DNA of 36,266 nucleotides from Ignavibacteria bacterium (lineage in GTDB: Bacteria > Bacteroidota > Ignavibacteria > Kapaibacteriales > Kapaibacteriaceae), in the NCBI GenBank assembly GCA_013204605.1, contig JABMNI010000008.1:1-36266 (forward strand), in the 5' to 3' direction. The position numbers were made by a program, and so were the translations under genes. Below the pieces are notes generated by a model. The model was given only the letters and a program-made list of their open reading frames with translations. It did not search any database and was not told the DNA's origin. Of the stretch, positions 12,101 to 33,345 are shown piece after piece. How positions within the stretch are numbered: position 1 is the first letter of the stretch; each line of letters starts with the position of its first letter.

Positions 12101-13567
12101 ATGAAAATTTTTTGGTTACTACTTTTTACGACCTTTTCGATTTCAGTTACGCCTGTGCATACCCAGGCGCAAATAGATCCAACCTTCATTTTCCCCAAAT
12201 CTGAAACTAATCGTCAATACCCGAAGGTTAAACGTGGCGATGACGGTACGTTGGTTGTAACGTACGTTGAATTAGTAGGAAATGTAACCACGGTGTATGT
12301 TTCTATCAGTACTGACTCTGGCGAGACCTGGTCGGAACCAACTTCGCCCGGAACTGTTAAATACGCGAGCATTGGTTTGCAAAGGCAGCCTTACACGATT
12401 GTCGACAACACAGGTGTGCTACATGGTTTGTGGGAGAACAATGAGCATGCTGGCAATCTGCTGTTGTATTACACTCGATCTGCCGATAACGGCGCCACTT
12501 GGACCACTCCTGCCAATGTGTATGTACCCACGCAAGGCACGCAGGACTTTTCTAGCATAGCATCGGACAGGGATGGAAACATTTACATAACCTATTTAGC
12601 CTACGAAGAGAAATTCTCGGATGGTAGCAAGCATGTTTTTATGTTAAGATCTTCTGATAGGGGGCTTTCCTGGGGATTCCCAGTTAGAGTAGATCGATTT
12701 ATTGTAGGGGGCTCATGCGAGTGTTGTATTCAAAACGTTGCAACATCCAGTAGCGGTGAAGTAGCTGTAGTATTCCGTTCGAACATTTCAAATCGTAGAG
12801 ACATTTTTGTTTGTAGATCTCAGGATAATGGTGCCACATTTGATGAACCCGTACTAGTGCAAGATGAAAAATGGATGATTAACGCTTGCCCATCTACTGG
12901 ACCAAGCCTGGCGTACGACGGAGCAGGAAATTTGCACATAGCTTGGCGAGACTCTCGAAATGCAGTTGGCCTTGACGCGGCATACTATGCACGGGTTCCA
13001 TTGGGAAGTAGGGAGACGCCGACGAATATTAGTTTGAGCGCTGGTTTTAGTCAGACGGCTGAGTATCCCGTACCGGCAGTATCAGATAAAAACTCCAATG
13101 AAGTTATGGTGGTATTCGAGTCTTCACTTGGTGTAGCTTACGCGTATTCGCGGGACGCAGGAGAGTCATTTACCACGGAAAAGTTAGATCCACTAGTGGT
13201 TCGTAGTTCCGGTGTTGCGGCTGTATTTACAGATGAACATAAACCACTAATCCTATGGCAGGCTGATCGAGATGGAGTGTTCGATATAGCTATGGCCCAA
13301 CCTGAAGAATTTTTACCAGTTTCCGTTCAAGAAGAGTCTGGAAATGGACTCTCAAGAATTTCTTACGTTGATGGGAACTTAGTTAGTAGTTCTCCGGACA
13401 GCTATATCAGCACCATTAGTATGCACAGCTTAACAGGAGAATTGATATTTACCACAAACACTACCGGCAATGCCTTTTCAAGGTCAATTCCAATTAATGG
13501 AGTTGCTTTTGTAACAGTTCAACTATCAAACGGCGCTCAGATTCGCCGAATGGTGATCAGGGAATGA
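12101..13567 (+). CDS. Secreted Asp-box beta-propeller with CxCC metal-site motif
   Basis: 488 residues. ATG 12101 is chosen over an adjacent TTG because it directly precedes the signal peptide MKIFWLLLFTTFSISV, with GGAAGG upstream. At least five Asp-box (BNR) motifs are visible: STDSGETW, SADNGATW, SSDRGLSW, SQDNGATF and SRDAGESF, giving a sialidase-fold propeller. Around residues 205-210 it has GGSCECC, and about 60 residues later NACPSTGP with a following HIAWRDSRN. This CxCC...CP pair occurs in a family of propellers usually auto-named sialidase family protein; true sialidase catalytic residues are not evident. The C-terminus (about 425-488) resembles a short T9SS sorting domain. It lies about 100 bp before the MbnP-like gene, so a metal-linked surface role is inferred. 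Confidence 0.8.
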   Translation: MKIFWLLLFTTFSISVTPVHTQAQIDPTFIFPKSETNRQYPKVKRGDDGTLVVTYVELVGNVTTVYVSISTDSGETWSEPTSPGTVKYASIGLQRQPYTIVDNTGVLHGLWENNEHAGNLLLYYTRSADNGATWTTPANVYVPTQGTQDFSSIASDRDGNIYITYLAYEEKFSDGSKHVFMLRSSDRGLSWGFPVRVDRFIVGGSCECCIQNVATSSSGEVAVVFRSNISNRRDIFVCRSQDNGATFDEPVLVQDEKWMINACPSTGPSLAYDGAGNLHIAWRDSRNAVGLDAAYYARVPLGSRETPTNISLSAGFSQTAEYPVPAVSDKNSNEVMVVFESSLGVAYAYSRDAGESFTTEKLDPLVVRSSGVAAVFTDEHKPLILWQADRDGVFDIAMAQPEEFLPVSVQEESGNGLSRISYVDGNLVSSSPDSYISTISMHSLTGELIFTTNTTGNAFSRSIPINGVAFVTVQLSNGAQIRRMVIRE

Positions 13568-13667
13568 GTTGCAAATGGAATCTAGGGATCAAGACGCAAT
13601 TCGCCGCGTACGCAGTTATATTGCACTACGAATTACATGTTCTCGACTTACATTTTCGAATAATATT

Positions 13668-14630
13668 ATGAAAAAACTTGTACTCTCCATGGTAACGCTT
13701 TTAATGAGTGTTAGCCTTTTTGCTCAATCCCCTTCCGTATCGTTAAACATACACGGATTATGTGCCGGGAAGCCCCTTGTACTAAATTCAAATGTTGCTT
13801 CGATGAATGATTCGTACTACTTCAGCATTTCAATGATGCGGTATTACATTACGGGGATCAGTATTATTCATGATGGTGGACAAATGGATGTTGTTCCCGA
13901 CGGTGTGATACTTGTAGATGAGGCCGATCCAACCGTGGTGAACCTAGGAAGGTTTCCTGTGAAAAACATTGAAGGCATCAAGTTTTTTATCGGAGTTGAT
14001 CAGGCTAGAAATCATTTAGATCCTACAACGTATCCGGAGGTTCATCCGCTGGCACCAAAGAACCCAACCATGCATTGGGGTTGGACCCCAGGCTATCGGT
14101 TTGTAACGTTGGAAGGTAAAGCGGGTAGCTCTCAAATGAACGTTAACACGGGATTTCAAATTCACTCGTTGGGCGATGAGTTGTATGGATCGGTAACCGT
14201 TCCGTTGCAATTGACAGTGATGGGAATTCAAACCACGATTGACCTTTATGCTGAGTATGGAAATCTGTTAAAAGGAATAGATGTTACGCAGGGTCCGGTA
14301 TCTCACGCATCAACCGGCATTTCAAAAACACTGATTACGAATTTTCTATCGTCGGTGTTTTCATCTAGCAATACCGCGGCAGTTAACAAAGATGCTACCC
14401 AAATTGTAAGCGTGTTTCCGAACCCTTCGGCCGATCAGGTTGTTGTAAATGCGCCCGACGTTGTGGGCGTTGCAAGACTTGTGAACGCTGCAGGCGTGAC
14501 GGTACAGACACAGAGCTTTTCGGGTGAAGCTACTTTTAACACCTCAGCACTGAGCAACGGTACGTGCACAGTGGTTCTTCAAAGCAAGCAAGGCGTGGTG
14601 AGTACTCATCGTGTTGTGGTTGCAAAATAA
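13668..14630 (+). CDS. MbnP-like copper-protein candidate with T9SS sorting domain
   Basis: 320 residues from ATG 13668, where the signal peptide MKKLVLSMVTLLMSVSLFAQ begins. Residues about 25-225 match the MbnP family: an early LNIHG, YFSISMMRYYITGISI, then IKFFIGVDQARNHLDP, then MHWGWTPGYRFVTLEG and FQIHSLG. In the Methylosinus MbnP, copper is bound by two histidines and a kynurenine made from Trp by the diheme enzyme MbnH. Here H29, H166 and W137 or W139 are the candidates by position (inference). Residues about 248-320 (FPNPSADQVVV ... STHRVVVAK) are a T9SS type A sorting domain, so the protein should reach the cell surface, unlike the proteobacterial form. The next gene overlaps its end and encodes the expected MbnH-like partner. 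Confidence 0.85.
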   Translation: MKKLVLSMVTLLMSVSLFAQSPSVSLNIHGLCAGKPLVLNSNVASMNDSYYFSISMMRYYITGISIIHDGGQMDVVPDGVILVDEADPTVVNLGRFPVKNIEGIKFFIGVDQARNHLDPTTYPEVHPLAPKNPTMHWGWTPGYRFVTLEGKAGSSQMNVNTGFQIHSLGDELYGSVTVPLQLTVMGIQTTIDLYAEYGNLLKGIDVTQGPVSHASTGISKTLITNFLSSVFSSSNTAAVNKDATQIVSVFPNPSADQVVVNAPDVVGVARLVNAAGVTVQTQSFSGEATFNTSALSNGTCTVVLQSKQGVVSTHRVVVAK

Positions 14631-15636
14631 ATTGTGGCTACGTAGTAGTCTGTGGCAACGCAATAGTTTGTGGCACTTGTTTGGGCTATACGTTCTTTGC
14701 GCAGTATTGCCTGCGTGTTCCACAGCACCTGATGCTGCTCAAACGCCATTGATTGCTGTTCCGCTGGGCTTGACCGAGCAGAGTTATCCGAGTGATAATG
14801 TTCCAACAGCCGAGCGCATTGAACTTGGCAGACAGTTGTTTTTCAGTGCGGCGCTCTCGCGGACGGGAGAAATATCGTGTGCCTCGTGCCACCGTCCAGA
14901 AAACTTTTTTGCCGACAACAAGCCAACGTCGGCCGGTGTGGAAGGCCGTCCCGGAACTCGAAACGTACCATCGCTGATCAACGTTGGGTATCAACCCTAC
15001 ATGCTTCGCGAAGGCGGTGTTCCAACTCTTGAAATGCAAGTACTCGTGCCCATTCAAGAGCACAATGAATTCGATGATAACATTTTAGTAGTGGTGGACC
15101 GGTTGGCCAAAGACACAGCAATAAATGCCCAGAGTATCAGGTGCTACAATCGTAAAATCGACTCGTACTCGTTAGTGCGCGCAATAGCAAGTTTTGAACG
15201 GTCGTTGGTTTCCACTACATCTAGATACGACGAGTACAATATTCGAGGCCGGGCAGCGGTGCTTACGAATGAAGAGCATAACGGACGCAACATTTTCTTT
15301 GGTGAAAAGGGGCGGTGTGGAACTTGTCATAATGGAATCCAACTAACAAACTTCTCATTTCAAAACAACGGACTCTACGATGTGTACCCAGATTCGGGTA
15401 GGTTTCGGGTGACAAAAAACGATGCAGACATTGGAGTGTTTAAAGTACCAAGTCTGCGTAACGTGAGCCACACAGCCCCCTACATGTTTAACGGTTCGGT
15501 TGCAACGTTGGAAGAAGTAGTGCTGCATTACAACAGTGGTGGAAAATCGCACGTGAATAAAAAGCCGATATTGAAGCCGTTGAATCTTACAGTTGAAGAA
15601 CAAAAACAACTGGTTGCATTTTTGAAAGCGTTGTAA
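14611..15636 (+). CDS. MbnH-like diheme cytochrome c peroxidase-family lipoprotein
   Basis: Up to 341 residues with two heme c sites, C90-A-S-C-H94 and C236-G-T-C-H240. Family motifs are present: ELGRQLFFSAALSRTGEISC, FNGSVATLEEVVLHYNSGG and the FKVPSLRNVSHTAPYMFNG segment. Cys36 in VLPAC is a likely lipoprotein anchor. The enzyme belongs to the bacterial cytochrome c peroxidase/MauG superfamily. Because it overlaps the MbnP-like gene it is probably the MbnH that oxidises the partner's tryptophan to kynurenine. The start is uncertain: GTG 14611 or TTGs at 14632 or 14668. All lie in an 18-nt repeat that gives a hexapeptide series LWxxxx (residues 2-25) before the membrane anchor. Confidence 0.88.
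   Translation: MLWLQNKLWLRSSLWQRNSLWHLFGLYVLCAVLPACSTAPDAAQTPLIAVPLGLTEQSYPSDNVPTAERIELGRQLFFSAALSRTGEISCASCHRPENFFADNKPTSAGVEGRPGTRNVPSLINVGYQPYMLREGGVPTLEMQVLVPIQEHNEFDDNILVVVDRLAKDTAINAQSIRCYNRKIDSYSLVRAIASFERSLVSTTSRYDEYNIRGRAAVLTNEEHNGRNIFFGEKGRCGTCHNGIQLTNFSFQNNGLYDVYPDSGRFRVTKNDADIGVFKVPSLRNVSHTAPYMFNGSVATLEEVVLHYNSGGKSHVNKKPILKPLNLTVEEQKQLVAFLKAL
14615..14686 (+). repeat. 18-nt tandem repeat across the MbnP/MbnH gene junction
   Basis: TGTGG(T/C) recurs at 14615, 14633, 14651 and 14669, exactly 18 bp apart, each preceded by TTG or CTG in the MbnH frame. The repeat runs from the last codons of the MbnP-like gene into the leader of the diheme gene and translates as LWLQNK, LWLRSS, LWQRNS, LWHLFG. 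It offers several alternative TTG starts for the lipoprotein. Confidence 0.75.
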
Positions 15637-15727
15637 ACGGTGCATCATCTCAACAGATACATTTTGATTGCTTAGTTTTAACACAACCTGTTCCCGTTTT
15701 GTTGCAAACAAATCGCTTATAAAACCT

Positions 15728-16813
15728 ATGAAATTTCAAATCGTAACACTTGCGTTAGCCGCGTCACTTTTTGTGTCTTGTTCGAACACCACAACCACGC
15801 CGGTAGAGCCCCCTAAATACGATGCCACGCCCTACTCTTTTGATGCAAAGGGGCTTCCTGTTCCAAAGTTGCCGGTAGATAATGCATTGACGCAACAAAA
15901 AGTGGAACTGGGAAGAATGCTGTTTCACGAAACGATGCTCAGCAAGGATAACACGCAAGCCTGCGCCAGTTGCCACAAACAAGCCGATGGCTTTAGTGAT
16001 ATCCGCCAGTTCAGTATTGGCGTACAGGGTCTGCCAGGCAAACGCCAAGCCATGCCGATTTTTAACATGGCGTGGCACACTGACGGATTTTTCTGGGATG
16101 GCCGCGCACCGTTGTTACGCGACCAAGCACTGCGTCCAATTCAAGATGTGTTAGAGATGAACGAAACGCTCCCCAACGTAATCAAAAAACTAAGCGACAC
16201 CGAGAAGTACCGGTTTCAATTTATTCGCGCCTTTGGTAACGACACAATTAACGAGCTAAAAATCTCGCTTGCGTTGGAACAGTTTATGTTGACGATTGTT
16301 AGTGGCAACAGCAAGTTCGACAAAATGAACAGAGGCCAGACAGTGTTCACTGACCAAGAGGAACGCGGACGCAAACTATTCTTTACCGAGTTCGATCCGA
16401 TGAATAAGGTGAAGGGGGCTGAGTGTTTCCACTGTCATGGAGGAACAAATTTTACAAACAACAATTACATAAACAATGGTCTTGATGACGATGCCGGAAT
16501 TACGGATCTCGGCAGATACGAAGTAACAAAGGTAAAACGCGATTGGGCAACCTTCAAGGTGCCATCTTTGCGCAACGTTGCACTCACGCCGCCCTATATG
16601 CACGATGGCAGGCTAGCAAGTTTAGAAGAAGTAGTAGATCACTACGCCACTGGCGTAAAGAAATCGATTAGTGTTGATTTTCAAATGCAATACAACCTGC
16701 AGCCCGGCGGATTAAAGTTGAGTGAGCAAGACAAAGATGATTTAGTTGCATTTTTAAATACACTTACCGATGCCGACCTCGCCGCAAATACAGCATTCGG
16801 TGCTCCGAAATAA
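15728..16813 (+). CDS. Second diheme cytochrome c peroxidase-like lipoprotein
   Basis: 361 residues from ATG 15728; the longer in-frame reading from 15668 adds 20 residues before the signal peptide. Lipobox FVSC18 follows a classic n/h region (MKFQIVTLALAASLF). Heme sites are C79-A-S-C-H83 and C233-F-H-C-H237. Conserved family segments include VELGRMLFHETMLSKDN, HTDGFFWDGRAPLLRDQAL and FKVPSLRNVALTPPYMHDGR. The intact WDGRA segment resembles peroxidase-type members more than the first paralogue does, so the pair may be non-redundant. It follows the MbnH-like gene by 91 bp, probably in the same transcript. Possible roles are H2O2 reduction, or supplying oxidising equivalents to or acting beside the MbnH-like enzyme. 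Confidence 0.9.
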   Translation: MKFQIVTLALAASLFVSCSNTTTTPVEPPKYDATPYSFDAKGLPVPKLPVDNALTQQKVELGRMLFHETMLSKDNTQACASCHKQADGFSDIRQFSIGVQGLPGKRQAMPIFNMAWHTDGFFWDGRAPLLRDQALRPIQDVLEMNETLPNVIKKLSDTEKYRFQFIRAFGNDTINELKISLALEQFMLTIVSGNSKFDKMNRGQTVFTDQEERGRKLFFTEFDPMNKVKGAECFHCHGGTNFTNNNYINNGLDDDAGITDLGRYEVTKVKRDWATFKVPSLRNVALTPPYMHDGRLASLEEVVDHYATGVKKSISVDFQMQYNLQPGGLKLSEQDKDDLVAFLNTLTDADLAANTAFGAPK

Positions 16814-17799: not shown

Positions 17800-18375
17800 A
17801 TGCGAACTGTCCTTTTCTTGTTCTTTTGCGTTTGTACAACAACCGTGTTAGCTCAGGGTGATACCTGCGTTAAACAGTTGTGGGCGAACCTACCTATTGG
17901 CGAGAAAGAGCTCTTGAGCGTTAAGACAACTTGGCCCATTGCATCGGCGGTGGCCGAGGGCACGAGGAAGGATGCGTTTTTACGGAGCACGGGCTACACA
18001 AACCCAGAAGGGGCGTTGCCACAAAATGTGGTTGTGTTAGTCATTTCAAGCTGTGGCAGCAACGGTAGAACACTCGAGCTTGTGTATGTGAAAGGTCAGG
18101 AAGGCGAGCGAGATGAAAACGTGTACTTGGTTAGCTGGATTGGAGACAGTGTTGCGTCGAGGTCATTGATTGCCAGCCTACAAACAACGTGCGAGTTTAC
18201 GTTCTTGCGTGCTTGTCAGGTCGACGCTAACGGGAGTCTAATTATTCAACAGCTACAACATAATTTTAATTGCGAAACCGACGAGTTTATCAAGACAGAT
18301 ACATTGCCATCCTTCGTGGTGGTTTTAATAGAAGACAAAGAAATTCAAGAAATAGTTGAAGAGTTAAAAGAATGA
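17800..18375 (+). CDS. Secreted protein of unknown function coupled to a metalloprotease
   Basis: 191 residues with a signal peptide (MRTVLFLFFCVCTTTVLAQ). The mature protein has five to six Cys (DTCVKQ, SSCGS, TTCEF, RACQ, FNCET) likely to form disulfides, and an acidic C-terminus (IEDKEIQEIVEELKE). No family is recognised. Its stop overlaps the start of the next gene in an ATGA, so the two are translationally coupled. A small secreted protein fixed to a protease gene could be an inhibitor, chaperone or substrate, but the sequence does not show which. No T9SS domain is present. Confidence 0.75.
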   Translation: MRTVLFLFFCVCTTTVLAQGDTCVKQLWANLPIGEKELLSVKTTWPIASAVAEGTRKDAFLRSTGYTNPEGALPQNVVVLVISSCGSNGRTLELVYVKGQEGERDENVYLVSWIGDSVASRSLIASLQTTCEFTFLRACQVDANGSLIIQQLQHNFNCETDEFIKTDTLPSFVVVLIEDKEIQEIVEELKE

Positions 18376-21300
18376 AACATTACCACCTGCGAGTTTTACT
18401 GAGCCTTGTGCTTTTGTGCTGCATTGTTTGCACGCTGAGTGCGCAGCAGCAGTTACAGTTATTTACACCATCGAATAAACCGATGGAAGTGCAGTTACAT
18501 CACGCGGCGGAATTCATCAAGGTTGATCGCGGAGTGTTTGCATCAGCACAAACTTTATCGGTAGGTCAAATGATTCGGGTCACGGTTCCTCTGCCGGACC
18601 ACGGCAACGTTACCGCTGTCGTTTCGAAATTCGAAGTTTTTTCAAGCACAGCTACCATTATTGCCGAGACAAAAAATGGAAAGGTAAATGTGGCGCGTCC
18701 TGTTAGTTTACTACTTCGAGGGTTCATTCCATCGATACCTGGATCGTACATCATGCTTGCTGTGTATTCAGATTGGTGCACAGGTTATATCAGTGTTCCG
18801 AGCGGTACAGAAACTAAGCGGTATTTGGTAAGCCCCCTAAAAGAAATTGGCAACACTGAAGGGGGCATTGCAGGGCAGACAATGATTGTGTACGATGAGT
18901 TTTACGGAGTGCATCCGCAGGCTTGGCATTGCGCGGTTACTGATGAGGGAGTTGTGCAACCGCGAAAGAAAAATGGGGCAGCGCAAACGCAGGCAACCTA
19001 TGCAAACGTTGAACTAGCTATCGAAGCTGATTATGATATGTACTTAGATCATGGTGGGAACACCACCAAAACAACGGAGTATGCCGAGGCAGTTGTGGCT
19101 GCTTCGAGCGCTATTTATTCACGGGATGTGAATGCTTCGTTCACGATTGTGTACTATAAGCTTTGGACAGTAGCAGATCCGTATACGGGTACAACATCAA
19201 GCACCTTGTTATCGCAATACCGAACATATTGGCGCAACAACAACAATGGAATTGCGCGAGATATTTCAACGTTATTGAGCGGAATAAATAGTATTGGTGG
19301 AGTTGCATATTTGGATGGAATGTGCGGAACAAATCAAGGGTATTCAATCTGCGGTTTGAATAATAACATTACGTATCCTGCTACGGGATATGCTTGGGAC
19401 ACCGATGTGGTTTCGCACGAATTAGGACACAACATTGGGTCGCCCCACACGCACTCGTGCACGTGGTCGCCAGCTATCGATTCTTGCTATGCAGCTGAGG
19501 GCAGTTGTTTTTCTGGAACGAAGGCGCGCCAAGGTACTGTAATGTCGTACTGTCACCTAACCACATTTGGCACCAGTTTAGAATTTCATCCAACGGTGCA
19601 AACGCTATTGAAAAGTAAACTGCAGGGTGGTGCCTGTGTAGCCATGATAGCAGCTACCACTGTTAACGCCGGTAAGGATACCACCATTTGCAATGGCGCT
19701 TCGGTTCAGTTAACTGCAACAGTTTCAGGTGGCGTATCGCCGTACACATTTGTGTGGACGCCAACCACGGGCATGACGGGATCAACAACGGCAACACCAA
19801 CGGTTACGCCCACAGTTACAACATCATACATAGTTGAAGCAAGAGACAAGAACAGCGTATTGGCAAAAGACACGGTAAAAGTCACCGTCAATTCGTTGAT
19901 TACCATTGCAATGCCCGGCAAAGACTCCATTTGCGCCGGCACCGTCCGCGCCTACACCTCATCTGTAGTTGGCGGCACACTTCCGTATACTTTTTCATGG
20001 CGTCAAGACACCAGCACCTACGTTACAACATCAGCATCAATCACGTTTGCACCTCAAAAAACTGGAATGCTTTATTTAACCGCCACCGATGCAAAGGGTT
20101 GCAAAAGGACCGACAGTGTAAACATTAAGGTGTTTGAAAAACCAATTGTCTCAATCACAAACAACGATCAGTTACTCTGTCCAAGTACACTTACCACCTT
20201 GGAAGCCGTGCCTACGGCTGGTAGAGCCCCCTTCACATATACATGGTACGAGAACACTTTTAGGGTAGCCAATACGCTTCCGCAACACGTTTCGGTGCCC
20301 GCCACCACAACTACGTATCGAGTGATTATCGTGGATTTAAATGGTTGCGCTGACACGGCTGAACGCCAGGTCACGGTACGCAGTATTTCCGGAAAAACAA
20401 TTCCGTCAACACTTCCAATACCCAACCTAGCCGTTTGCGACGATGGATTTTCTGCTACCGTTGCAATTGAAAATACCGGCGCCGATACCATCGTGATTTC
20501 AAGTGTAAAAACAGGCACGGTGGTTGTTCAAACTTCCGATTTGCCTACAACTATTTTTCCAGGTCAACAAAAAACCATTGCAATGTTTATCAAGCCAAAT
20601 GCGGCTGGACAGATAACAGATACAATTGTATTTGCCGAATCGATTTGTAACAAAAAATTCACTACAATTTTATCGGGTAAGGTAGGGGGCTTTGTGTTAA
20701 CTAGCTCAATACCTGCAGATTTTCCCGCTACAACATTTTGTGTTACTCCTGCACCAAGACGAACGTCCGTTACGGTGTCCAACACCACGGGTCAGCCGGT
20801 TACCATGCTTACGGTTTCGTCGGCAAAATTTCCGGGACTCGTTACGTATGGCACAACCGACCTTACAATTGCACCTAATACTGTGAAGAGTGTTTTGTTA
20901 CTTGCTAATGTCTCGGTACCTGAGGGAGTTTTTAACGACACGCTGAAACTGAATTTTCTTACAGGGTCGTGTCAGTCATCACTCAATGTTCCAGCGAAGT
21001 TTACCACCACCAAACTCACCGTTTCCATTCCTGAATTAATTTCATTTGATACGGTGGCGGCGCAGAATTCGCCAAGTGTTACTAGGTCGTTTACAATACA
21101 TCCCGTTGTGACTGGATTGTCATCAGTTGTGGTGTCAGCAGTAACAATTACTCCGCCCTTCACAACCAAACTCACACCCGGCACAATTTTAACAACGAAT
21201 GCCGATAATACTTTCACGGCGCAGTTCAATCCGTCTTTGGCAACAAAGGTTGGAAACATTACAGGAACACTTACCCTGCGTTTAGACTCTTGTGGAACTG

Positions 21301-21584
21301 ACTATGCGGTCGCATTGTTTGCGAGAATTGGAATTGTTTCGGGCGTTGACACTGAAGGCGAAGATGAGTTTGATCGGATGTTGACAGTACACCATAATGA
21401 GATTGTAACGGGCGATGTAATTGCAAATCTGCGCGTACTTGATTTACGTGGCGCATTAATGTTGGAACGAAATATCGAAGGAAAATCAACGATCGATATC
21501 TCCAACATTCCGTCGGGCGTATATGTTGTTATGATTAGGCGAGATCTAGAAGTGCATTCAAGAATCATCTCACTGATACGGTAA
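18372..21584 (+). CDS. T9SS-exported M12-type metalloprotease with PKD-like domains
   Basis: 1070 residues. Signal peptide at 1-25; a beta-rich pro-region to about 190; a reprolysin-like catalytic domain at about 205-425 with H349-ELG-H353-NIG-S-P-H359 (HExxHxxGxxH zinc site) and a Met-turn VMSYCH. Two to three SprB/PKD-like repeats follow (about 430-670: GKDTTICNGASVQL, GKDSICAGTVRAY, then a third). Ig-like choice-of-anchor modules lie at about 690-985, and a T9SS type A sorting domain at the end (LRVLDLRGALMLERNIEG ... IPSGVYVVMIRR). It should be a cell-surface or released peptidase of metzincin type; substrate unknown. It is coupled to the preceding secreted protein by a 4-bp overlap. All catalytic residues appear intact. 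Confidence 0.92.
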   Translation: MKHYHLRVLLSLVLLCCIVCTLSAQQQLQLFTPSNKPMEVQLHHAAEFIKVDRGVFASAQTLSVGQMIRVTVPLPDHGNVTAVVSKFEVFSSTATIIAETKNGKVNVARPVSLLLRGFIPSIPGSYIMLAVYSDWCTGYISVPSGTETKRYLVSPLKEIGNTEGGIAGQTMIVYDEFYGVHPQAWHCAVTDEGVVQPRKKNGAAQTQATYANVELAIEADYDMYLDHGGNTTKTTEYAEAVVAASSAIYSRDVNASFTIVYYKLWTVADPYTGTTSSTLLSQYRTYWRNNNNGIARDISTLLSGINSIGGVAYLDGMCGTNQGYSICGLNNNITYPATGYAWDTDVVSHELGHNIGSPHTHSCTWSPAIDSCYAAEGSCFSGTKARQGTVMSYCHLTTFGTSLEFHPTVQTLLKSKLQGGACVAMIAATTVNAGKDTTICNGASVQLTATVSGGVSPYTFVWTPTTGMTGSTTATPTVTPTVTTSYIVEARDKNSVLAKDTVKVTVNSLITIAMPGKDSICAGTVRAYTSSVVGGTLPYTFSWRQDTSTYVTTSASITFAPQKTGMLYLTATDAKGCKRTDSVNIKVFEKPIVSITNNDQLLCPSTLTTLEAVPTAGRAPFTYTWYENTFRVANTLPQHVSVPATTTTYRVIIVDLNGCADTAERQVTVRSISGKTIPSTLPIPNLAVCDDGFSATVAIENTGADTIVISSVKTGTVVVQTSDLPTTIFPGQQKTIAMFIKPNAAGQITDTIVFAESICNKKFTTILSGKVGGFVLTSSIPADFPATTFCVTPAPRRTSVTVSNTTGQPVTMLTVSSAKFPGLVTYGTTDLTIAPNTVKSVLLLANVSVPEGVFNDTLKLNFLTGSCQSSLNVPAKFTTTKLTVSIPELISFDTVAAQNSPSVTRSFTIHPVVTGLSSVVVSAVTITPPFTTKLTPGTILTTNADNTFTAQFNPSLATKVGNITGTLTLRLDSCGTDYAVALFARIGIVSGVDTEGEDEFDRMLTVHHNEIVTGDVIANLRVLDLRGALMLERNIEGKSTIDISNIPSGVYVVMIRRDLEVHSRIISLIR

Positions 21585-26835: not shown

Positions 26836-27591
26836 CTATTGTGAGTTCAACGCCCAGTTGTACTCGGTGAATGCAAAGACCCACATTTTAGAATCTACGA
26901 CGAGACTTCTCGCTACTGGTTCTGGAGCATATTTGCCAACATAAGTCAAAATCCCCTTACTGCTTGCACCAAAGTCAGATGCATACCATTCGAATAATTT
27001 CGACAACGTAGCACGTTTTGTTATGGCGTTGAAGGAATTTACCGCTGTGTTACTTAGAAAAGTTTTGGCTTGATCTGTTAGTTGGAAGTCCAAGCGTGCG
27101 GCGGTGTAGGCTTCGGAGCGTAACGGTGGACAACTCATGGCGGCACACACAAGCGCGAAGTGAATTCGGGCGTCGCCCATTTTTCTAAGAATGGAATTCT
27201 CAATCATTTCCAGCGTGTAGGTTTTACCGTCGATCTTAAATGAATATTTCTTCCACACCTGACCACTCTCGATATCCATGATAGACTTAATCGGATAGTT
27301 GTCGCAAACTACTTTCAGCGTAAACGCATTGTATGCGTTTATCCAAAATGCCATTTCTTCAGCACCCTTTAACGCAGATGTTTCGCTCGCTTGAATTTCT
27401 CGCAAGTACGCCGGTAACCGATGGTCACTCTTCAGTGCGCGGTAATCAACCAGACCCTTGCTTACGTGCGCCTTCAAAACTGATGTTAACAATGCGTGAT
27501 TGGGCTGTCCTGCAATTGCAACACCGGCACTATTGAAAATCAATACCAGAATTGCCGACGCGACCGACAACAAACTTTTTAGTGCGCTCAT
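26836..27591 (-). CDS. Exported DUF547 protein
   Basis: 251 residues from ATG 27591 (MSALKSLLSVASAILVLIF, a signal peptide); a start at 27639 adds 16 residues and would run into the region of the divergent receptor start. DUF547 hallmarks are present: LKAHVSKGLVDYRALK, then MAFWINAYNAFTLKVV and the core HFALVCAAMSCPPLR. The domain is widespread in exported bacterial and plant proteins with unknown biochemistry. The broken copy at 22889-23215 is a paralogue or older homologue. Its start lies only 23 bp from the ATG proposed for the divergent TonB-type receptor, so promoters must overlap coding sequence. Confidence 0.88.
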   Translation of the reverse strand: MSALKSLLSVASAILVLIFNSAGVAIAGQPNHALLTSVLKAHVSKGLVDYRALKSDHRLPAYLREIQASETSALKGAEEMAFWINAYNAFTLKVVCDNYPIKSIMDIESGQVWKKYSFKIDGKTYTLEMIENSILRKMGDARIHFALVCAAMSCPPLRSEAYTAARLDFQLTDQAKTFLSNTAVNSFNAITKRATLSKLFEWYASDFGASSKGILTYVGKYAPEPVARSLVVDSKMWVFAFTEYNWALNSQ

Positions 27592-27614
27592 TTGATAAAT
27601 GGTTGCTGTTCTTG

Positions 27615-29936
27615 ATGGAATATTTTTCTTATGTATCATTGCACGTGAAATTACTGCGAATAATAGTTGTCGTTACTTTGATTTGCTTTTGGATGCCGAC
27701 GCACGCCAAGGGAACCTCCGATTCGCCTAACAACCCATCTCCAGCAAATTCTGAAAACCGCGGGTCAATTACCGGAACTGTGAGGAGCAAGGGAACACAA
27801 AGCCCCCTGCCGAATGTTAGCGTGAATGTTGTTGGAAGTGTGGTGGGAGTGGGTGGTGTGGAGGGAGCTAAAACGGATTTGCACGGACGCTACACATTAC
27901 GCGATGTACCGCTCGGAATTGTAAGTGTGCGTTTTTCTGCCGAGGGTTTGTACTCGTATGTGGCAACCTATGTGGCTGTTGGCGCGGATGCGCCGGCGGT
28001 GTTGGATGTGGACCTGCGTGATGATGTAGCATCGGACACGGCGAGCGTTTCCGCCGATCTTTATTTTGGTGGTAGCATGGCAGCAGATTTGACGCTGACT
28101 GAGCAAGAGGTGCTCCGATCGCCGGCCTCGGTGAATGATCTGAATAGAGCGCTAATGATTTTGCCCGCAGTGACATCGGTGGAGGACGCAACGAACGATC
28201 TGATTATTCGTGGGGGCTCGCCCGCCGAGACCGGCTACTACGTTGATGGAATGTACATGCAAAACATTTCGCATTTTCCGCAGTTGGGTGCGAGTGGTGG
28301 GCTGATTACCATTTTGAATATGGACTTCGTGCGCAGTGTTGATATTTCGGTAAGGGGCTTTTCAGCTTCCATGGGGAATGTGATGTCGGGCATTGTAGAT
28401 ATACGGCAGCGCGACGGTAGGGCGGATGCCTTGCACGGTCAGTTGGATTTGAATGCTACGGGCTTCGGTGTGAACATCGAAGGACCCATCACGGCTTCGA
28501 CAACAATTCTTGCTTCTGCACGCAAGAGCTACGTTGATGCATTAATTGCGCTTTTGAATGTTGGTGATGCGCCAAACTATTCTGATGTGCAGGGAAAAAT
28601 TGTACACAAGTTTTCTGATGATCATTCGATGGCGTTGATGGGAATCTATGGGTACAACAATTTTAACCGGACACCAAGTAGTTCTGCCGATGATAATTTT
28701 CCAACGTTCGGTACTGAGAACTATAAACAGTTAACAGCAGGTGCAACGTTCACGGACATATGGAGTACAGACTTCAGCTCACAAACCACGGTGAACATTC
28801 AAAGCACTAACGCGGGGTATGCGTGGCAGCGTCTGACAGATAGTGTGTTGGTTGACAGTGCTACAACAACCAACACCTTGTGGAACCTGCGTCATGTTAG
28901 TACGCTTCAAGCTACCAGCAACGTAATGATTAGCGGTGGCATTGAGTTCCGAAACATTGCAACTGCGCAACAGAACCTACAACGCAGCTCGTCTGCCAAC
29001 TCGGGCTTCATGGCCGCGTTTGCTGATGTCACAATGGGCGACGATAACCTTGGTGCGTATGCCGGTGTTCGCATGCAAGCATACACCAATTCCGCGCCTC
29101 TCACACTCGACCCACGATTGCGGATATGGATAGCCCCTTTCAATAAAATGCTTTTCTCTGCGAACGCTATGTATGTTTCGCAAACATTACCAACCTACAT
29201 CGCGTTGGGAAGTGGAAATGCGTTATCGCAGTCCACGCCGCGTTGCTTGCATTTATCTGTGCAGGTGGAATACTCGCGCGTGCCGGGTGAGCGAATTACG
29301 CTCAGTGCATACAGCAAGCAATACACCGGTATGCCGCTAGCAGCGGCTGCACCTCAGAGTTTTCTGTTCGACCAAGTTGCGGGCACGCAGCTAACGTTTT
29401 CAACTTTTGATAGTGTGCAAACAAGTGGTACCGCTCTGACAAACGGAATAGAATTGTGGTATCAAAAAAAACTCAGCAACAATTGGATGGCCAATGCCGG
29501 AGTGTCGGTTTTTGAATCTACGTATCGCGATTGGAACGGTGAGCAGCGTGACCGTTCGTTCAACAACAGAGTGGTAGCCTTTGCCCAGGTGGCGTGGACA
29601 CCAACTGCCAGCATTACTGTGAGTGGAAGATATTCATTGGCAGGGGGCCGACCCTACACGCCGATAGACCGCGGCGCCTCGGTTGCAACTGGAAATGAAG
29701 TGCTGAATTACACCTTAACGAATCGACAAAACTTACCCACGTACCACTCGCTAAGTATGCGCGCAGACAAACGTTGGTTTTACGAATCGTCATCGCTCAC
29801 TGTGTATCTCAGCGTGATGAATTTGTTAAACACGCAAAATGTAAAAGGCTACGTGTGGGATTCGGTTGAGAATAAAATTAAGGCGAACCCAATGTGGGGA
29901 ATCATCCCCGTGTTTGGCGTAGAATTCGATTGGTAG
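27615..29936 (+). CDS. TonB-dependent receptor-like outer-membrane protein
   Basis: 773 residues. The start is uncertain: ATG 27615, or GTG 27645, which gives the neater signal peptide (KLLRIIVVVTLICFWMPTHA). Residues about 50-140 are a carboxypeptidase-regulatory-like domain (SITGTVRSKG ... DLHGRYTLRDVPLG). A plug domain follows (LNRALMILPAVTSVEDATND, LIIRGGSPAETGYYVDGMYM, FVRSVDISVRGFSASMGNVM). The rest is a beta-barrel of about 550 residues ending in PVFGVEFDW, a typical aromatic barrel end. Such receptors import chelated metals, cofactors or glycans with TonB energy. Ligand unknown; the metal and redox genes nearby make a metal chelate plausible, which is inference. Confidence 0.9.
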   Translation: MEYFSYVSLHVKLLRIIVVVTLICFWMPTHAKGTSDSPNNPSPANSENRGSITGTVRSKGTQSPLPNVSVNVVGSVVGVGGVEGAKTDLHGRYTLRDVPLGIVSVRFSAEGLYSYVATYVAVGADAPAVLDVDLRDDVASDTASVSADLYFGGSMAADLTLTEQEVLRSPASVNDLNRALMILPAVTSVEDATNDLIIRGGSPAETGYYVDGMYMQNISHFPQLGASGGLITILNMDFVRSVDISVRGFSASMGNVMSGIVDIRQRDGRADALHGQLDLNATGFGVNIEGPITASTTILASARKSYVDALIALLNVGDAPNYSDVQGKIVHKFSDDHSMALMGIYGYNNFNRTPSSSADDNFPTFGTENYKQLTAGATFTDIWSTDFSSQTTVNIQSTNAGYAWQRLTDSVLVDSATTTNTLWNLRHVSTLQATSNVMISGGIEFRNIATAQQNLQRSSSANSGFMAAFADVTMGDDNLGAYAGVRMQAYTNSAPLTLDPRLRIWIAPFNKMLFSANAMYVSQTLPTYIALGSGNALSQSTPRCLHLSVQVEYSRVPGERITLSAYSKQYTGMPLAAAAPQSFLFDQVAGTQLTFSTFDSVQTSGTALTNGIELWYQKKLSNNWMANAGVSVFESTYRDWNGEQRDRSFNNRVVAFAQVAWTPTASITVSGRYSLAGGRPYTPIDRGASVATGNEVLNYTLTNRQNLPTYHSLSMRADKRWFYESSSLTVYLSVMNLLNTQNVKGYVWDSVENKIKANPMWGIIPVFGVEFDW

Positions 29937-29944
29937 AATCTTTA

Positions 29945-29972
29945 AACGACCGGGACAAAACGACCGGGTCAA
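29945..29972. repeat. 14-bp tandem repeat before the pirin gene
   Basis: AACGACCGGGACAA is followed directly by AACGACCGGGTCAA (one mismatch). It fills most of the 53-bp gap between the receptor and pirin genes. Confidence 0.6.
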
Positions 29973-29989
29973 ATTAACAGAAATAAATT

Positions 29990-30697
29990 ATGAAAACCGT
30001 TCTTCACAAAGCAAACACGCGCGGCCACGCCAATCACGGCTGGCTTAATAGTTTCCACACCTTCAGTTTTGCTGAATACCACAATCCGGAACGAATGCAC
30101 TTTGGAGTAATCAGAGTATTGAACGATGACACCGTAGCAGGGGGAATGGGCTTTGGAATGCACCCGCACGAAAACATGGAGATAATTTCCATTCCATTGG
30201 AAGGTGACTTGCAGCACTCCGATAGCATGGGCAACGCCACGGTAATTCGTAACGGTGACATTCAAGTGCTGAGCGCGGGCACCGGCATAACACACAGCGA
30301 GTTCAATGCAAACAAAGAAACCCCAGTAAAATTTTTACAGATTTGGGTGATTCCAAATAAACGAAACGTTGGGCCGCGGTATGGTCAAATATCGCTCCGC
30401 GACATCGCCACGAAAAATTCTTTCTACCAAATTCTCTCACCATCGCCCGACGACCAAGGCGTATGGATCCATCAGGATGCATGGTTCCACATGGCCGATT
30501 TTGATAAGGGGCTAGGTGGTACATACACGTTCAAAAATTCAACAAACGGTCTGTACATTTTCGTGCTCAGTGGCTCCATTACCGTCGGCGATGAACAATT
30601 GGAAGCACGTGATGGTTACGGGGTGTGGGATGTAGATTCGGTACAGATTACAGCAACTGAAGATACTCACGTGTTACTAATGGAAATACCGGTCTAA
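29990..30697 (+). CDS. Pirin family protein (YhaK-like)
   Basis: 235 residues, the usual length of the short bicupin pirins. The metal-site residues of the N-terminal cupin are visible: H58-P-H60 in FGMHPHENMEI and H102, E104 in GTGITHSEFN. Other family blocks include RGHANHGWLNSFHTFSFAEY and FLQIWVIPN. Some pirins act as quercetin 2,3-dioxygenases or redox-sensing cofactors; the role here is unknown. It follows the receptor gene by 53 bp and is probably co-transcribed. It has no signal peptide, so it is cytoplasmic. Confidence 0.93.
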   Translation: MKTVLHKANTRGHANHGWLNSFHTFSFAEYHNPERMHFGVIRVLNDDTVAGGMGFGMHPHENMEIISIPLEGDLQHSDSMGNATVIRNGDIQVLSAGTGITHSEFNANKETPVKFLQIWVIPNKRNVGPRYGQISLRDIATKNSFYQILSPSPDDQGVWIHQDAWFHMADFDKGLGGTYTFKNSTNGLYIFVLSGSITVGDEQLEARDGYGVWDVDSVQITATEDTHVLLMEIPV

Positions 30698-30765
30698 TGT
30701 GGAAATGTGAGAATGTGAAGATGTGAAAATCCTTAATTCTTAATTTTCAATCCTTAATCCTTAAT
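30698..30765. repeat. Mixed simple repeats AATGTGA and CTTAATC
   Basis: AATGTGGAAATGTGAGAATG variants (about 30698-30729) are followed by CCTTAATTCTTAA/TCCTTAATCCTTAA repeats (30731-30765). They recall the repeats at 2897-3026 and 22766-22892 and again lie between two convergent genes. Confidence 0.65.
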
Positions 30766-30793
30766 TGCTTGTCGACTTCTTAGTCGACAAGCA
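30766..30793 (-). terminator. Perfect 12-bp hairpin at the DtxR gene end
   Basis: TGCTTGTCGACT (30766-30777) and AGTCGACAAGCA (30782-30793) are perfect inverted repeats around a TCTT loop. The stem includes the last codons and the stop of the DtxR-type gene. No T-run follows on the minus strand, so it may be a terminator or an mRNA-stabilising structure. Confidence 0.6.
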
Positions 30794-31433
30794 GGCTGTC
30801 TGCAAACTTCTTCGAAACCGACTTATGAGGTTGGTTGCCGATTTTCACCACCAAGGTATCATCGAACTCAATTCGATCAATCACCTTAATCGACGTGTGA
30901 ATATTTACGCCGAGCTGTTGTAGATATTGAAGGAAAATTGGTGAGGTGTCTTTAACGGCGACTACCTTACACGACTTACCGGTAGGCACATCCGAAAGTG
31001 TTGTGCGCACCGTTAATGGAATTTTTCCGCTGCGCATTGGTATGGGATCGCCATGCGGGTCGTACTGAGGATTGCCAAGAAACGTATCCAATCTATCAGC
31101 CAACTCAGGATGTTTAACGTGTTCCAACTGTTCCGCTATTTCGTGAACCACATCCCAAGAATATCCGAGTTTCTCTAATAAGAATACTTCCCACAGACGG
31201 TGGTTGCGCACAATTCCAAGTGCTGTTTTAAGCCCCTTTGCAGTTAGCTTCATGCCCGTGGTTTTATGATAGGTGATTAATTTTTTGACCGTCAGTTTTT
31301 TTATCATGTCAACAACCGAGGCTGCATTCACCTGCAGGTCGTCAGCCACCACCGTAGGGGATATCTTACCTGCATGACTCAATGAGAGCAGGTAGACAGC
31401 CTTTACATAGTTTTCTTCCGTTAAAGAATTCAT
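30780..31433 (-). CDS. DtxR/MntR-family metal-dependent repressor
   Basis: 217 residues. An N-terminal winged helix (about 1-65: LTEENYVKAVYLLSLS, VVADDLQVNAASVVDMIKKL) is followed by the dimerisation and metal-binding domain (about 70-135: RNHRLWEVFLLEKLGYSWDV, HEIAEQLEHV) and a C-terminal SH3/FeoA-like domain (about 140-217). H78, E101, E104 and H105 match the metal ligands of MntR-type members, with E82 and H97 also available. It should bind DNA when Mn2+ or Fe2+ is present. It is divergent from the DHOR/Rieske/porin operon across 138 bp that hold two palindromes, so it probably controls that operon and itself. Confidence 0.93.
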   Translation of the reverse strand: MNSLTEENYVKAVYLLSLSHAGKISPTVVADDLQVNAASVVDMIKKLTVKKLITYHKTTGMKLTAKGLKTALGIVRNHRLWEVFLLEKLGYSWDVVHEIAEQLEHVKHPELADRLDTFLGNPQYDPHGDPIPMRSGKIPLTVRTTLSDVPTGKSCKVVAVKDTSPIFLQYLQQLGVNIHTSIKVIDRIEFDDTLVVKIGNQPHKSVSKKFADSLLVD

Positions 31434-31507
31434 TTAGCAGCCATGGTTACGTTGAGTAAAGATCGACAACCACAAAAATACGAGTTGCGTTGATCTACCC
31501 CACAAAA

Positions 31508-31521
31508 TTAGACGAGTCTAA
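31508..31521. promoter_or_regulatory. Palindrome TTAGAC-GA-GTCTAA, candidate DtxR-family operator
   Basis: Six-base perfect arms around a 2-bp centre, in the shared region between the DtxR-type gene and the DHOR operon. TTAG..CTAA arms are common in DtxR/IdeR operators. It lies 51 bp before the DHOR ATG. Confidence 0.6.
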
Positions 31522-31540
31522 CTATTTTAGTATGGTGTAT

Positions 31541-31561
31541 CAAACATATGTAGTATGTTTG
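31541..31561. promoter_or_regulatory. Palindrome CAAACATA-TGTAG-TATGTTTG, candidate MntR-like operator
   Basis: Perfect 8-bp arms around a 5-nt centre, ending 10 bp before the DHOR ATG. The AAACATA/TATGTTT arms equal those of the E. coli MntR operator as I recall it, but the spacing is shorter by 3 bp. Position would block translation or transcription start. Confidence 0.6.
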
Positions 31562-31571
31562 CTCGATCAAC

Positions 31572-32789
31572 ATGAATACGACTTTTACAATACCCCATGT
31601 GACAAGTAACGTGATTGCGATGTTTTGCGCCGCAATACTGTTAATCGGCTGCGATGCCATATTGCCTTCGGCTCCGAATGATGCCGATGTGTTGGATGGT
31701 CCGGTCGACGCACTATCGTCTGCCCAACATGCGCAGTTTTTACGCGGTGACGTGGCGTTTAATGATGATGTGTTTACGGCTGCAACGGGTTTGGGACCCA
31801 TTTTTGTTGCCACGAGCTGCGGGTCGTGTCACGCCGGCGATGGTAAGGGGCATCCGTTTACCACGTTAACACGGTTCGGTCAGGGCGATGAGAATGGAAA
31901 CGCGTATCTCGACCGCGGCGGACCTCAGCTTCAGAACCGCGCGCTACCCGGATACACTCCCGAGCAAATTCCTGGGGGAGCCCCTTTTACAAAACTCACT
32001 CCACCGGCAAATACCGGGTTGGGTTTTATGGAGTTGGTGAGCGATGCGGATATCATTGCAATGTCGGATGAAAACGATGCTGACGGCGATGGCGTTTCCG
32101 GTGTTCCAAATTGGCGTCCACTTGTATCGTATTTGAGCGCTCATCAAAATTCAATTCCAACTAATGAGCAGTACATTCACAGATTCGGAAAGAAAGCCGC
32201 TGCGTACAATTTATTGCACCAAACGGTGAACGCGTACAATCAGGATATTGGGATCACTTCAATCTTCGAACCGAAGGATGTGTATAGTGGCGTAAACATC
32301 GAACCCGAAGTCAGTGCAAGTGTAATACATGACGTAGTGTTTTATTTGCAGACTCTAAAAGTGCCCGTTGAAAGAAATCCGAATGATGAAGCAGTGAAAA
32401 ACGGCAAGCGGTTGTTCATCCAAATAGGTTGCGACAATTGTCATAAGCAAACATTGAAGACGGCGTATTCACCAGTTGCAGCGTTACGTAACAAGGAATT
32501 TCATCCATATACGGATTTGCTGCTGCACGATATGGGAAAGGGGCTCGATGATGGTTACACCGAGGGAAGTGCAAAGACGTATGAGTGGCGAACGCCAGCG
32601 CTGTGGGGGTTGGGTCTGTCACAAAACTCACAAGGCGGCGAGTATTTTTTACTCCACGACGGACGTGCCAAAAGCATCACTTCAGCCATCGTGATGCATG
32701 GCGGTGAGGCCGCAATGAGCACACAGAAATTTCAAGCGCTAACTGAGGCGGAGAAACGCGACATATTAAAGTTTTTGGAGCAGTTGTGA
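31572..32789 (+). CDS. DHOR-family diheme oxidoreductase lipoprotein
   Basis: 405 residues. A lipoprotein signal ends LLIGC27. Heme c sites are C83-G-S-C-H87 and C287-D-N-C-H291. A DENDADGDGVSG calcium-loop-like segment (about 167-178) and the closing blocks HDMGKGLDDG, EWRTPALWGLG, FLLHDGRAKSI are typical of the DHOR (former DUF1111) family, distant relatives of diheme peroxidases. In Bacteroidota these genes often sit in iron-linked clusters; the biochemistry is not settled. The gene starts the operon next to the DtxR-type repressor and its 3' end is part of a 20-bp tandem duplication. Confidence 0.92.
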   Translation: MNTTFTIPHVTSNVIAMFCAAILLIGCDAILPSAPNDADVLDGPVDALSSAQHAQFLRGDVAFNDDVFTAATGLGPIFVATSCGSCHAGDGKGHPFTTLTRFGQGDENGNAYLDRGGPQLQNRALPGYTPEQIPGGAPFTKLTPPANTGLGFMELVSDADIIAMSDENDADGDGVSGVPNWRPLVSYLSAHQNSIPTNEQYIHRFGKKAAAYNLLHQTVNAYNQDIGITSIFEPKDVYSGVNIEPEVSASVIHDVVFYLQTLKVPVERNPNDEAVKNGKRLFIQIGCDNCHKQTLKTAYSPVAALRNKEFHPYTDLLLHDMGKGLDDGYTEGSAKTYEWRTPALWGLGLSQNSQGGEYFLLHDGRAKSITSAIVMHGGEAAMSTQKFQALTEAEKRDILKFLEQL

Positions 32790-32810
32790 AGTTACTGGAG
32801 CAGTTGTGAA
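32771..32810 (+). repeat. 20-bp tandem duplication at the DHOR gene end
   Basis: TTTTTGGAGCAGTTGTGAAG-like and TTACTGGAGCAGTTGTGAAA units (32771-32790, 32791-32810) repeat the last codons and stop of the DHOR gene. The second copy provides the GGAG and possible GTG start in front of the Rieske gene. Confidence 0.75.
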
Positions 32811-32811
32811 A

Positions 32812-33345
32812 ATGGATCGGAATATGTTTTTGAAGAGTTGTGGAGTGGCTTGCGTGAGCGGTGCTGCAATTACTGCACTTCTTGAAGGATGTACTTCTGC
32901 GAACTACTATGCAAAAACATTGATAGCTGGAAACAAAATAGTAATTCCAAAAACTGAGTTCGAATATGTTGATGATGGACAAAAAATTAATCGACAGTTT
33001 GTGTTGGTTCGGTCCGCAAAAAACAAGTATCCGATTTGCGTTCATAACAACAGCACTGGTCAGAGCATAGGTGATTACAACACTGCGGAAAAAATAACCG
33101 CTGAACAAAAATTCGCCGATCATAAATCTGCTGAACTATCAACTGCAAACACACCATATACGGCACTGTTAATGGAGTGCACACACAAAGGTTGTGAGCT
33201 TCGAGTAAATGGCGAGTATCTTGTTTGCCCGTGCCACGGCAGTGAGTTTACTAACAAAGGGGTTGTACAAAATCCTCCTGCCGAAAAAAATCTCCGCACA
33301 TTTATCGTCACTGCCGACAATGAGAATATCTATGTCGAAGTGTAA
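32812..33345 (+). CDS. Rieske [2Fe-2S] lipoprotein
   Basis: 177 residues from ATG 32812; a GTG at 32806, closer to GGAG, adds two residues. The N-terminus (FLKSCGVACVSGAAITALLEGC) is a signal with a possible lipobox at LLEGC. The cluster-binding motifs are C-T-H-K-G-C and C-P-C-H-G-S-E-F, spaced about 15 residues, giving Cys/His pairs plus the disulfide Cys of high-potential Rieske proteins. It should carry one electron between a donor and the DHOR heme enzyme (inferred from the operon). A 33-residue insert of charged residues precedes the cluster domain. No quinol or arsenite oxidase subunit is nearby. Confidence 0.9.
   Translation: MDRNMFLKSCGVACVSGAAITALLEGCTSANYYAKTLIAGNKIVIPKTEFEYVDDGQKINRQFVLVRSAKNKYPICVHNNSTGQSIGDYNTAEKITAEQKFADHKSAELSTANTPYTALLMECTHKGCELRVNGEYLVCPCHGSEFTNKGVVQNPPAEKNLRTFIVTADNENIYVEV

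Follow-up and report, generated by a model that had tools for sequence, protein, structure and literature searches.

A predicted T9SS-exported MbnP-family protein encoded with two divergent MbnH-like diheme enzymes in a member of the Kapaibacteriaceae

Gene content of the locus and protein families

The window analyzed here, 36,266 bases long, is the entire contig C72 (JABMNI010000008.1) of the 2.69 Mb genome of an Ignavibacteria bacterium (GCA_013204605.1; family Kapaibacteriaceae, phylum Bacteroidota). It encodes an MbnP-family protein with a C-terminal sorting domain of the type IX secretion system (T9SS), preceded by a gene for a beta-propeller and followed by genes for two diheme enzymes, designated MbnH1 and MbnH2. 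A sequence-only reading of the window had described these genes as a surface-exported copper system, and all four were found in a row on the plus strand where it had placed them:

12101..13567, plus strand: Asp-box (BNR) beta-propeller with CxCC and CP motifs and a signal peptide (BNR_2, 54 bits)
13668..14630, plus strand: MbnP-family protein with a T9SS C-terminal sorting domain (PF20243, 105 bits; TIGR04183, 30.4 bits)
14611..15636, plus strand: MbnH1, diheme (two CxxCH motifs) MauG/MbnH-like lipoprotein (CCP_MauG, 148 bits; TIGR04039, 227 bits)
15728..16813, plus strand: MbnH2, another diheme MauG/MbnH-like lipoprotein, from a clade distinct from that of MbnH1 (CCP_MauG, 177 bits; TIGR04039, 236 bits)

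The MbnH1 gene begins with a GTG codon within the last 20 bases of the MbnP gene (20 bp overlap), and the MbnH2 gene extends from an ATG at 15728 to 16813. Methanobactin biosynthesis genes, said to be missing from the vicinity, were indeed not found in a Pfam scan of the larger open reading frames of the window, of which a few lacked any match.

The second gene proved to encode an MbnP-like protein with a T9SS domain, as had been proposed. Residues 23–210 matched PF20243 with 105.3 bits (cut-off 27) and residues 249–318 matched TIGR04183 (T9SS type A) with 30.4 bits (cut-off 23); the score against the Pfam model of the T9SS tail was 25.2 bits, slightly under the cut-off of 27. A search of the PDB with the single MbnP sequence was unproductive. 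An AlphaFold2 model built from 82 sequences had a mean pLDDT of 93, and its top match found by Foldseek was MbnP 7L6G. VIA-align superimposed model residues 20–237 on 7L6G (Z 17.1, root mean square deviation 2.9, 202 residues aligned) and residues 240–320 on the T9SS C-terminal domains of PorZ, mirolase, and NucA (Z about 10). PF20243 was matched by all homologues (82/82), and a T9SS tail was present in 78 of the 82. SprA, the T9SS translocon, is encoded in the same genome (contig C42, 875 bits in total).

Residues M135, H136, W137, G138, W139, and H213 were present in all 84 rows of the MbnP alignment, and H166 in 83 of them. Thus, both Trp residues of the WxW motif and H166, which had been proposed as site residues, are conserved. 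H29, named along with them, is His in only 15 of the 84 rows, lies outside any conserved site, and was rejected as a copper-site residue; the invariant M135 was absent from the earlier list. A profile built from ordinary MbnPs places M-x-WxW and HxG opposite GMAWNW and HVG of 7L6G. A 2021 PNAS study of MbnP reportedly described a copper site composed of His, Met, a solvent ligand, and kynurenine formed from the first Trp of WxW. By alignment, H166, M135, and W137 would fill the corresponding roles, and one of the Trp residues of the protein is probably converted to create the copper site.

Both diheme proteins have lipoboxes in their N-termini (LPAC in MbnH1 and FVSC in MbnH2), and lipobox-type N-termini were found in 66 of 73 and 58 of 70 of their homologues, respectively, in agreement with their earlier description as lipoproteins. 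The best solved relative of both is MbnH 6E1C. The MbnH profile TIGR04039 was the best NCBIfam match for each (227.5 and 236.3 bits), and both scores were under its equivalog cut-off of 362.85, so the expected relationship to MbnH was supported while equivalog membership was not. Both enzymes carry Tyr, not Met, as in MbnH, at what we take to be the axial position of the second heme, judging by alignment with 6E1C and by known structures; this reading covers 65 and 69 rows, which were all the readable ones. The two enzymes differ at the inter-heme position, which is Arg in the H1 clade, (T/L/M)REGG, and Trp in the H2 clade, FWDGR; the residue was read from motif strings, since there is a one-residue insertion relative to 6E1C. 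Nearly all enzymes of the sample follow this split. An inter-heme Trp has long been considered essential for this diheme chemistry. It is conserved in bCcP and MauG, while BthA has Ser at this position and yet forms the bis-Fe(IV) state (PMC6405878). Therefore, Arg in MbnH1 is no sign of inactivity.

The tree resolved three well supported groups, namely H1, H2, and the MbnHs found in ordinary (lone) pairs; H2 joined this last group rather than H1. Recent tandem duplication as the origin of MbnH1 and MbnH2 was rejected because they belong to separate clades. Both enzymes could convert the MbnP Trp.

Distribution of the trio and its genomic context

Scanning 84,980 species genomes revealed 348 T9SS-type MbnP loci, the best 80 of which were used as a wider sample. 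The culturable Phaeocystidibacter luteus is among the organisms that carry these genes. Among the 17 same-family relatives with a T9SS-type MbnP, the trio MbnP(T9SS)-MbnH1-MbnH2 was found in 14; the remaining three had MbnP-MbnH1 only, and no MbnH2 orthologue was found elsewhere in these three genomes. Both enzymes were present at 62 of the 80 loci of the wider sample, in the order P-H1-H2 or P-H2-H1, and the taxa with the trio included Kapabacteria, Saprospiraceae, Flavobacteriales, and Bacteroidales. MbnP, MbnH1, and MbnH2 are a conserved trio across Bacteroidota, of which the propeller is no fixed part. The co-occurrence proposed for the four genes thus stood for three of them in most homologues, and a fixed four-gene operon was rejected since the propeller gene is unlinked in relatives of the same family.

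A genome of another family, G023 (locus L051, 5878–9671), contains two pairs in tandem, MbnP(lipoprotein)-MbnH2-MbnP(T9SS)-MbnH1. This arrangement suggests that MbnH2 formerly had its own MbnP. The lipoprotein MbnP paired with MbnH2 at this locus has Leu instead of Met before WxW. The MbnP variants of loci L067 and L068 read NWWSWN, also without Met before WxW, and adjoin an MbnH1-side enzyme that retains the inter-heme Trp. A trio was also observed in a metagenome-assembled genome labelled Phycisphaerales (L112), probably due to a binning error or transfer.

The propeller of the window matched BNR_2 with 54 bits (cut-off 31.4) and contains both motifs noted earlier, GGSCECC and NACP; its T9SS-like tail is weak (13 bits, cut-off 23). 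The structure model, based on five sequences, had low quality (pLDDT 55.7) and was left unused. Cysteines C206, C208, and C209 (CxCC) and C263 (CP) were invariant in 14 aligned homologues, as were R, D, W, and GP residues. Of 296 Bacteroidota genomes sampled, 83 encoded the CxCC/CPxxGP propeller family, mostly as one copy, and 29 had a match to MbnP. A close paralogue of the window propeller (53% identity) is encoded far away, on contig C5. In every same-family relative having it, the propeller gene was located away from the MbnP cassette, so it is not the fixed cassette member that the sequence-only reading had assumed.

A propeller gene adjoins T9SS-MbnP in five distant genomes, being directly upstream on the same strand in L104, L123, L136, and L142 and downstream in L132. 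These five copies within 6 kb of the 80 loci compare with 0.07–0.13 expected (Poisson P 1.5e-8 to 3e-7). A single clade of the linked propellers was rejected (p-AU 0.00026 in a one-clade test), and they have at least three independent origins; three of the linked copies carry T9SS tails above the cut-off, whereas the tail of the window copy is below it. Unlinked propeller genes were located beside those for CopA, multicopper oxidases, cupredoxin, or HMA-AraC regulators in about one-third of 28 loci, and others were beside TlpA-like and TonB receptor genes. These surroundings make a copper-handling role of this family likely, and a loose partnership of the propeller with MbnP appears plausible.

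Clustering of neighboring genes placed 32 of the 80 T9SS-MbnP loci within 6 kb of copper genes. The clusters included CusB-like adaptors with a heavy-metal-binding domain (HMBD; 15 loci), HYC_CC_PP proteins (14 loci), CusA (11 loci; representative above the TIGR00914 cut-off), CopA (10 loci; representative above the TIGR01511 cut-off), and CopZ-MauE fusions (7 loci). A further cluster, seen at 10 of the 80 loci (e.g., L099, L125, L136, L139, and L155), comprised AraC-family proteins that begin with an HMA-like segment (NMVCxRC) and look like copper-sensing regulators. A stricter uniform phmmer search identified copper genes within 6 kb of 25 of the 80 loci, whereas 20 control regions of 12.9 kb, picked arbitrarily from comparable genomes, contained none.

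Proposed function and alternative explanations

We consider it fairly probable that the window encodes a kynurenine-dependent Cu(I) protein that is matured in the periplasm by MbnH1/MbnH2 and then exported by the T9SS. According to this scheme, MbnP would be transported to the periplasm by Sec and would fold there. Lipid-anchored MbnH1 and/or MbnH2, as MauG-like enzymes with a His/Tyr-ligated second heme, would use peroxide to act on MbnP; the first Trp of WxW (W137) would be oxidized to kynurenine, and the Cu(I) site would be completed with M135 and H166. Copper loading would precede passage through the T9SS, and the sorting domain would carry the matured protein across the outer membrane, where, displayed or released, it could scavenge or sequester copper. 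The CxCC propeller would be a copper-associated protein in its own right, located at the surface or in the periplasm, and would become an optional partner once its gene lands beside the cassette, as it has in the window. The scheme is based on the protein families and folds, the presence of SprA, the conserved residues, the trio, and the copper context of the homologues; from these we infer Trp oxidation, copper binding, the order of steps, the surface location, the metal of the propeller, and the role of the two enzymes. The two enzymes may be oriented toward the periplasm or toward the cell exterior. In the latter case, MbnP would be modified after export, and the same may hold for the surface-located SACCP and MopE (PMC3912023).

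Several observations weigh against this scheme. With the NCBIfam equivalog TIGR04052, MbnP scored 41 bits at a cut-off of 140; it is outside this narrow equivalog and inside the wider Pfam family PF20243. Both enzymes score below the MbnH equivalog cut-off, and MbnH1 is devoid of the inter-heme Trp, having Arg instead. There are also genomes that keep T9SS-MbnP with MbnH1 alone. The uniform search found no copper-efflux gene in the window, nor beside the cassette at any of the 18 loci of its own order. The copper role in this genome is therefore deduced by homology: the copper-gene context that speaks for it exists at homologous loci and is missing in the window itself.

The presence of two enzymes could have a historical explanation, in which an ancestor with two tandem MbnP-MbnH pairs lost one MbnP, leaving MbnH2 as a leftover that merely backs up MbnH1 in acting on the other MbnP. 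The tandem pairs of G023, the clustering of MbnH2 with lone-pair MbnHs instead of MbnH1, and the lack of MbnH2 in G002, G004, and G011 fit this history, but the retention of MbnH2 at 62 of 80 loci in four Bacteroidota groups, in both gene orders, makes it unlikely that the enzyme is a mere leftover. The propeller, in turn, could be a bystander that has no functional tie to MbnP and reached its position in the window by chance. Its location elsewhere in same-family relatives, its occurrence in 83 of 296 Bacteroidota genomes, most of them without MbnP, and the close paralogue encoded far away on C5 agree with this; chance is nevertheless a doubtful explanation for an excess of linked copies, four of them directly upstream on the same strand, that have separate origins and in three cases T9SS tails above the cut-off. 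It is very improbable that the diheme proteins are ordinary peroxidases removing hydrogen peroxide and that MbnP is an independent surface protein. Although both enzymes fall within the CCP_MauG superfamily and the bCcP motif FWDGR occurs in MbnH2, the Tyr in place of Met at the axial position of the second heme in all 65 and 69 rows, the affinity of both enzymes to MbnH, and the conserved gene coupling with MbnP are at odds with such a function.

It is possible, though not what we would expect, that the exported MbnP helps to acquire copper, as MopE does when copper is limiting, rather than to resist it. Copper represses MopE and CorA, which are thus made under copper limitation (PMC3912023, PMC3621798). 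On the contrary, the efflux and export genes CusA, CusB, and CopA near homologous loci suggest copper stress, though such islands can serve both purposes. As an extension of periplasmic maturation followed by T9SS export, MbnH1 (Arg) and MbnH2 (Trp) might oxidize different residues (e.g., W137 and W139) or perform successive steps, yielding a doubly modified copper site, with the CxCC propeller passing copper to or from MbnP outside the cell; we regard this variant as quite improbable. Such a doubly modified copper site is not known from MbnP or MopE.

Comparison with known systems and other genes of the genome

The MbnP-MbnH pair of Methylosinus trichosporium OB3b (7L6G, 6E1C) shares with the window the fold, the M-x-WxW motif, the conserved His, and an adjacent diheme MauG-like enzyme with a Tyr ligand. 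In contrast to OB3b, the MbnP of the window has a T9SS domain and additional conserved His residues (H116, H126, H136, and H213), is devoid of the four-Cys motif that the 7L6G entry mentions, and is accompanied by two enzymes of different clades and no methanobactin genes. MbnP-MbnH pairs are widespread (PMC3621798). MopE-SACCP of Methylococcus capsulatus and CorA-CorB of Methylomicrobium album likewise combine a surface-type Cu(I) protein with a diheme partner gene, but rely on another export route and one enzyme. Both MopE and CorA are Cu(I) proteins located at the surface that contain kynurenine derived from Trp and whose genes are co-transcribed with that of a diheme peroxidase (PMC3912023), so surface display is less new than previously implied. 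No marked sequence similarity of MopE/CorA to MbnP was reported (PMC3621798), and neither was among the structure matches listed for the MbnP model, an absence that excludes nothing.

MauG and BthA are diheme enzymes with a His/Tyr-ligated heme and a bis-Fe(IV) state (PMC6405878). MbnH1 and MbnH2 are also of the diheme MauG type, and BthA, like MbnH1, has no inter-heme Trp; they differ from MauG and BthA in their substrates, as well as in the Arg of the H1 clade combined with an adjacent Trp-keeping paralogue. The T9SS type A cargo proteins NucA, mirolase, and gingipains share the sorting-domain fold and the match to TIGR04183, whereas the cargo encoded here is predicted to be a post-translationally oxidized copper protein.

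This system is set apart from the known ones by its predicted T9SS route and by having two enzymes. No paper on the T9SS-MbnP fusion, the two-enzyme trio, the CxCC propeller, or a "metallo-mystery pair" was found in a search that left most subscription literature outside. MbnPH is known as a pair, while here a trio consisting of one substrate and two deeply diverged MauG-like enzymes occurs across much of the phylum. The export tag on the MbnP substrate raises the question of whether oxidation of Trp to kynurenine precedes T9SS export of the folded protein. Other questions concern the role of a MauG-like enzyme with an inter-heme Arg beside a Trp-bearing partner and the function of the four invariant Cys in the uncharacterized CxCC propeller, which is present in 83 of 296 genomes and often near copper genes.

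A second, ordinary MbnP-MbnH pair, without a T9SS tail, is encoded in the same genome on contig C51 (2–3477; locus L001/L032). It follows an ECF sigma factor gene, a small gene that may encode an anti-sigma factor, and a gene for a small exported protein, CpxP/Spy-like by eye and without a Pfam match. The gene order from the sigma factor to MbnP-MbnH recurs in L062, L063, and partly in L069. This arrangement suggests stress-controlled expression.

Downstream of the cassette, at 17800–21584, the window contains a 191-aa gene without known identity and a gene for an M12B metalloprotease with a T9SS tail. Homologues of this protease are encoded divergently beside the MbnP cassette in eight relatives (L033, L038, L039, L043, L045, L047, L048, and L050), making it a more constant neighbor of the cassette than the propeller. 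Region 27552–34663 is a metal-flavored cluster with genes for a TonB plug protein, pirin, a Rieske protein, a porin-like protein, a DtxR/MntR-like repressor with a FeoA domain (minus strand), and a third diheme protein, DHOR (PF06537). A Mutator-family transposase gene (35004–36239) is located at the contig end.

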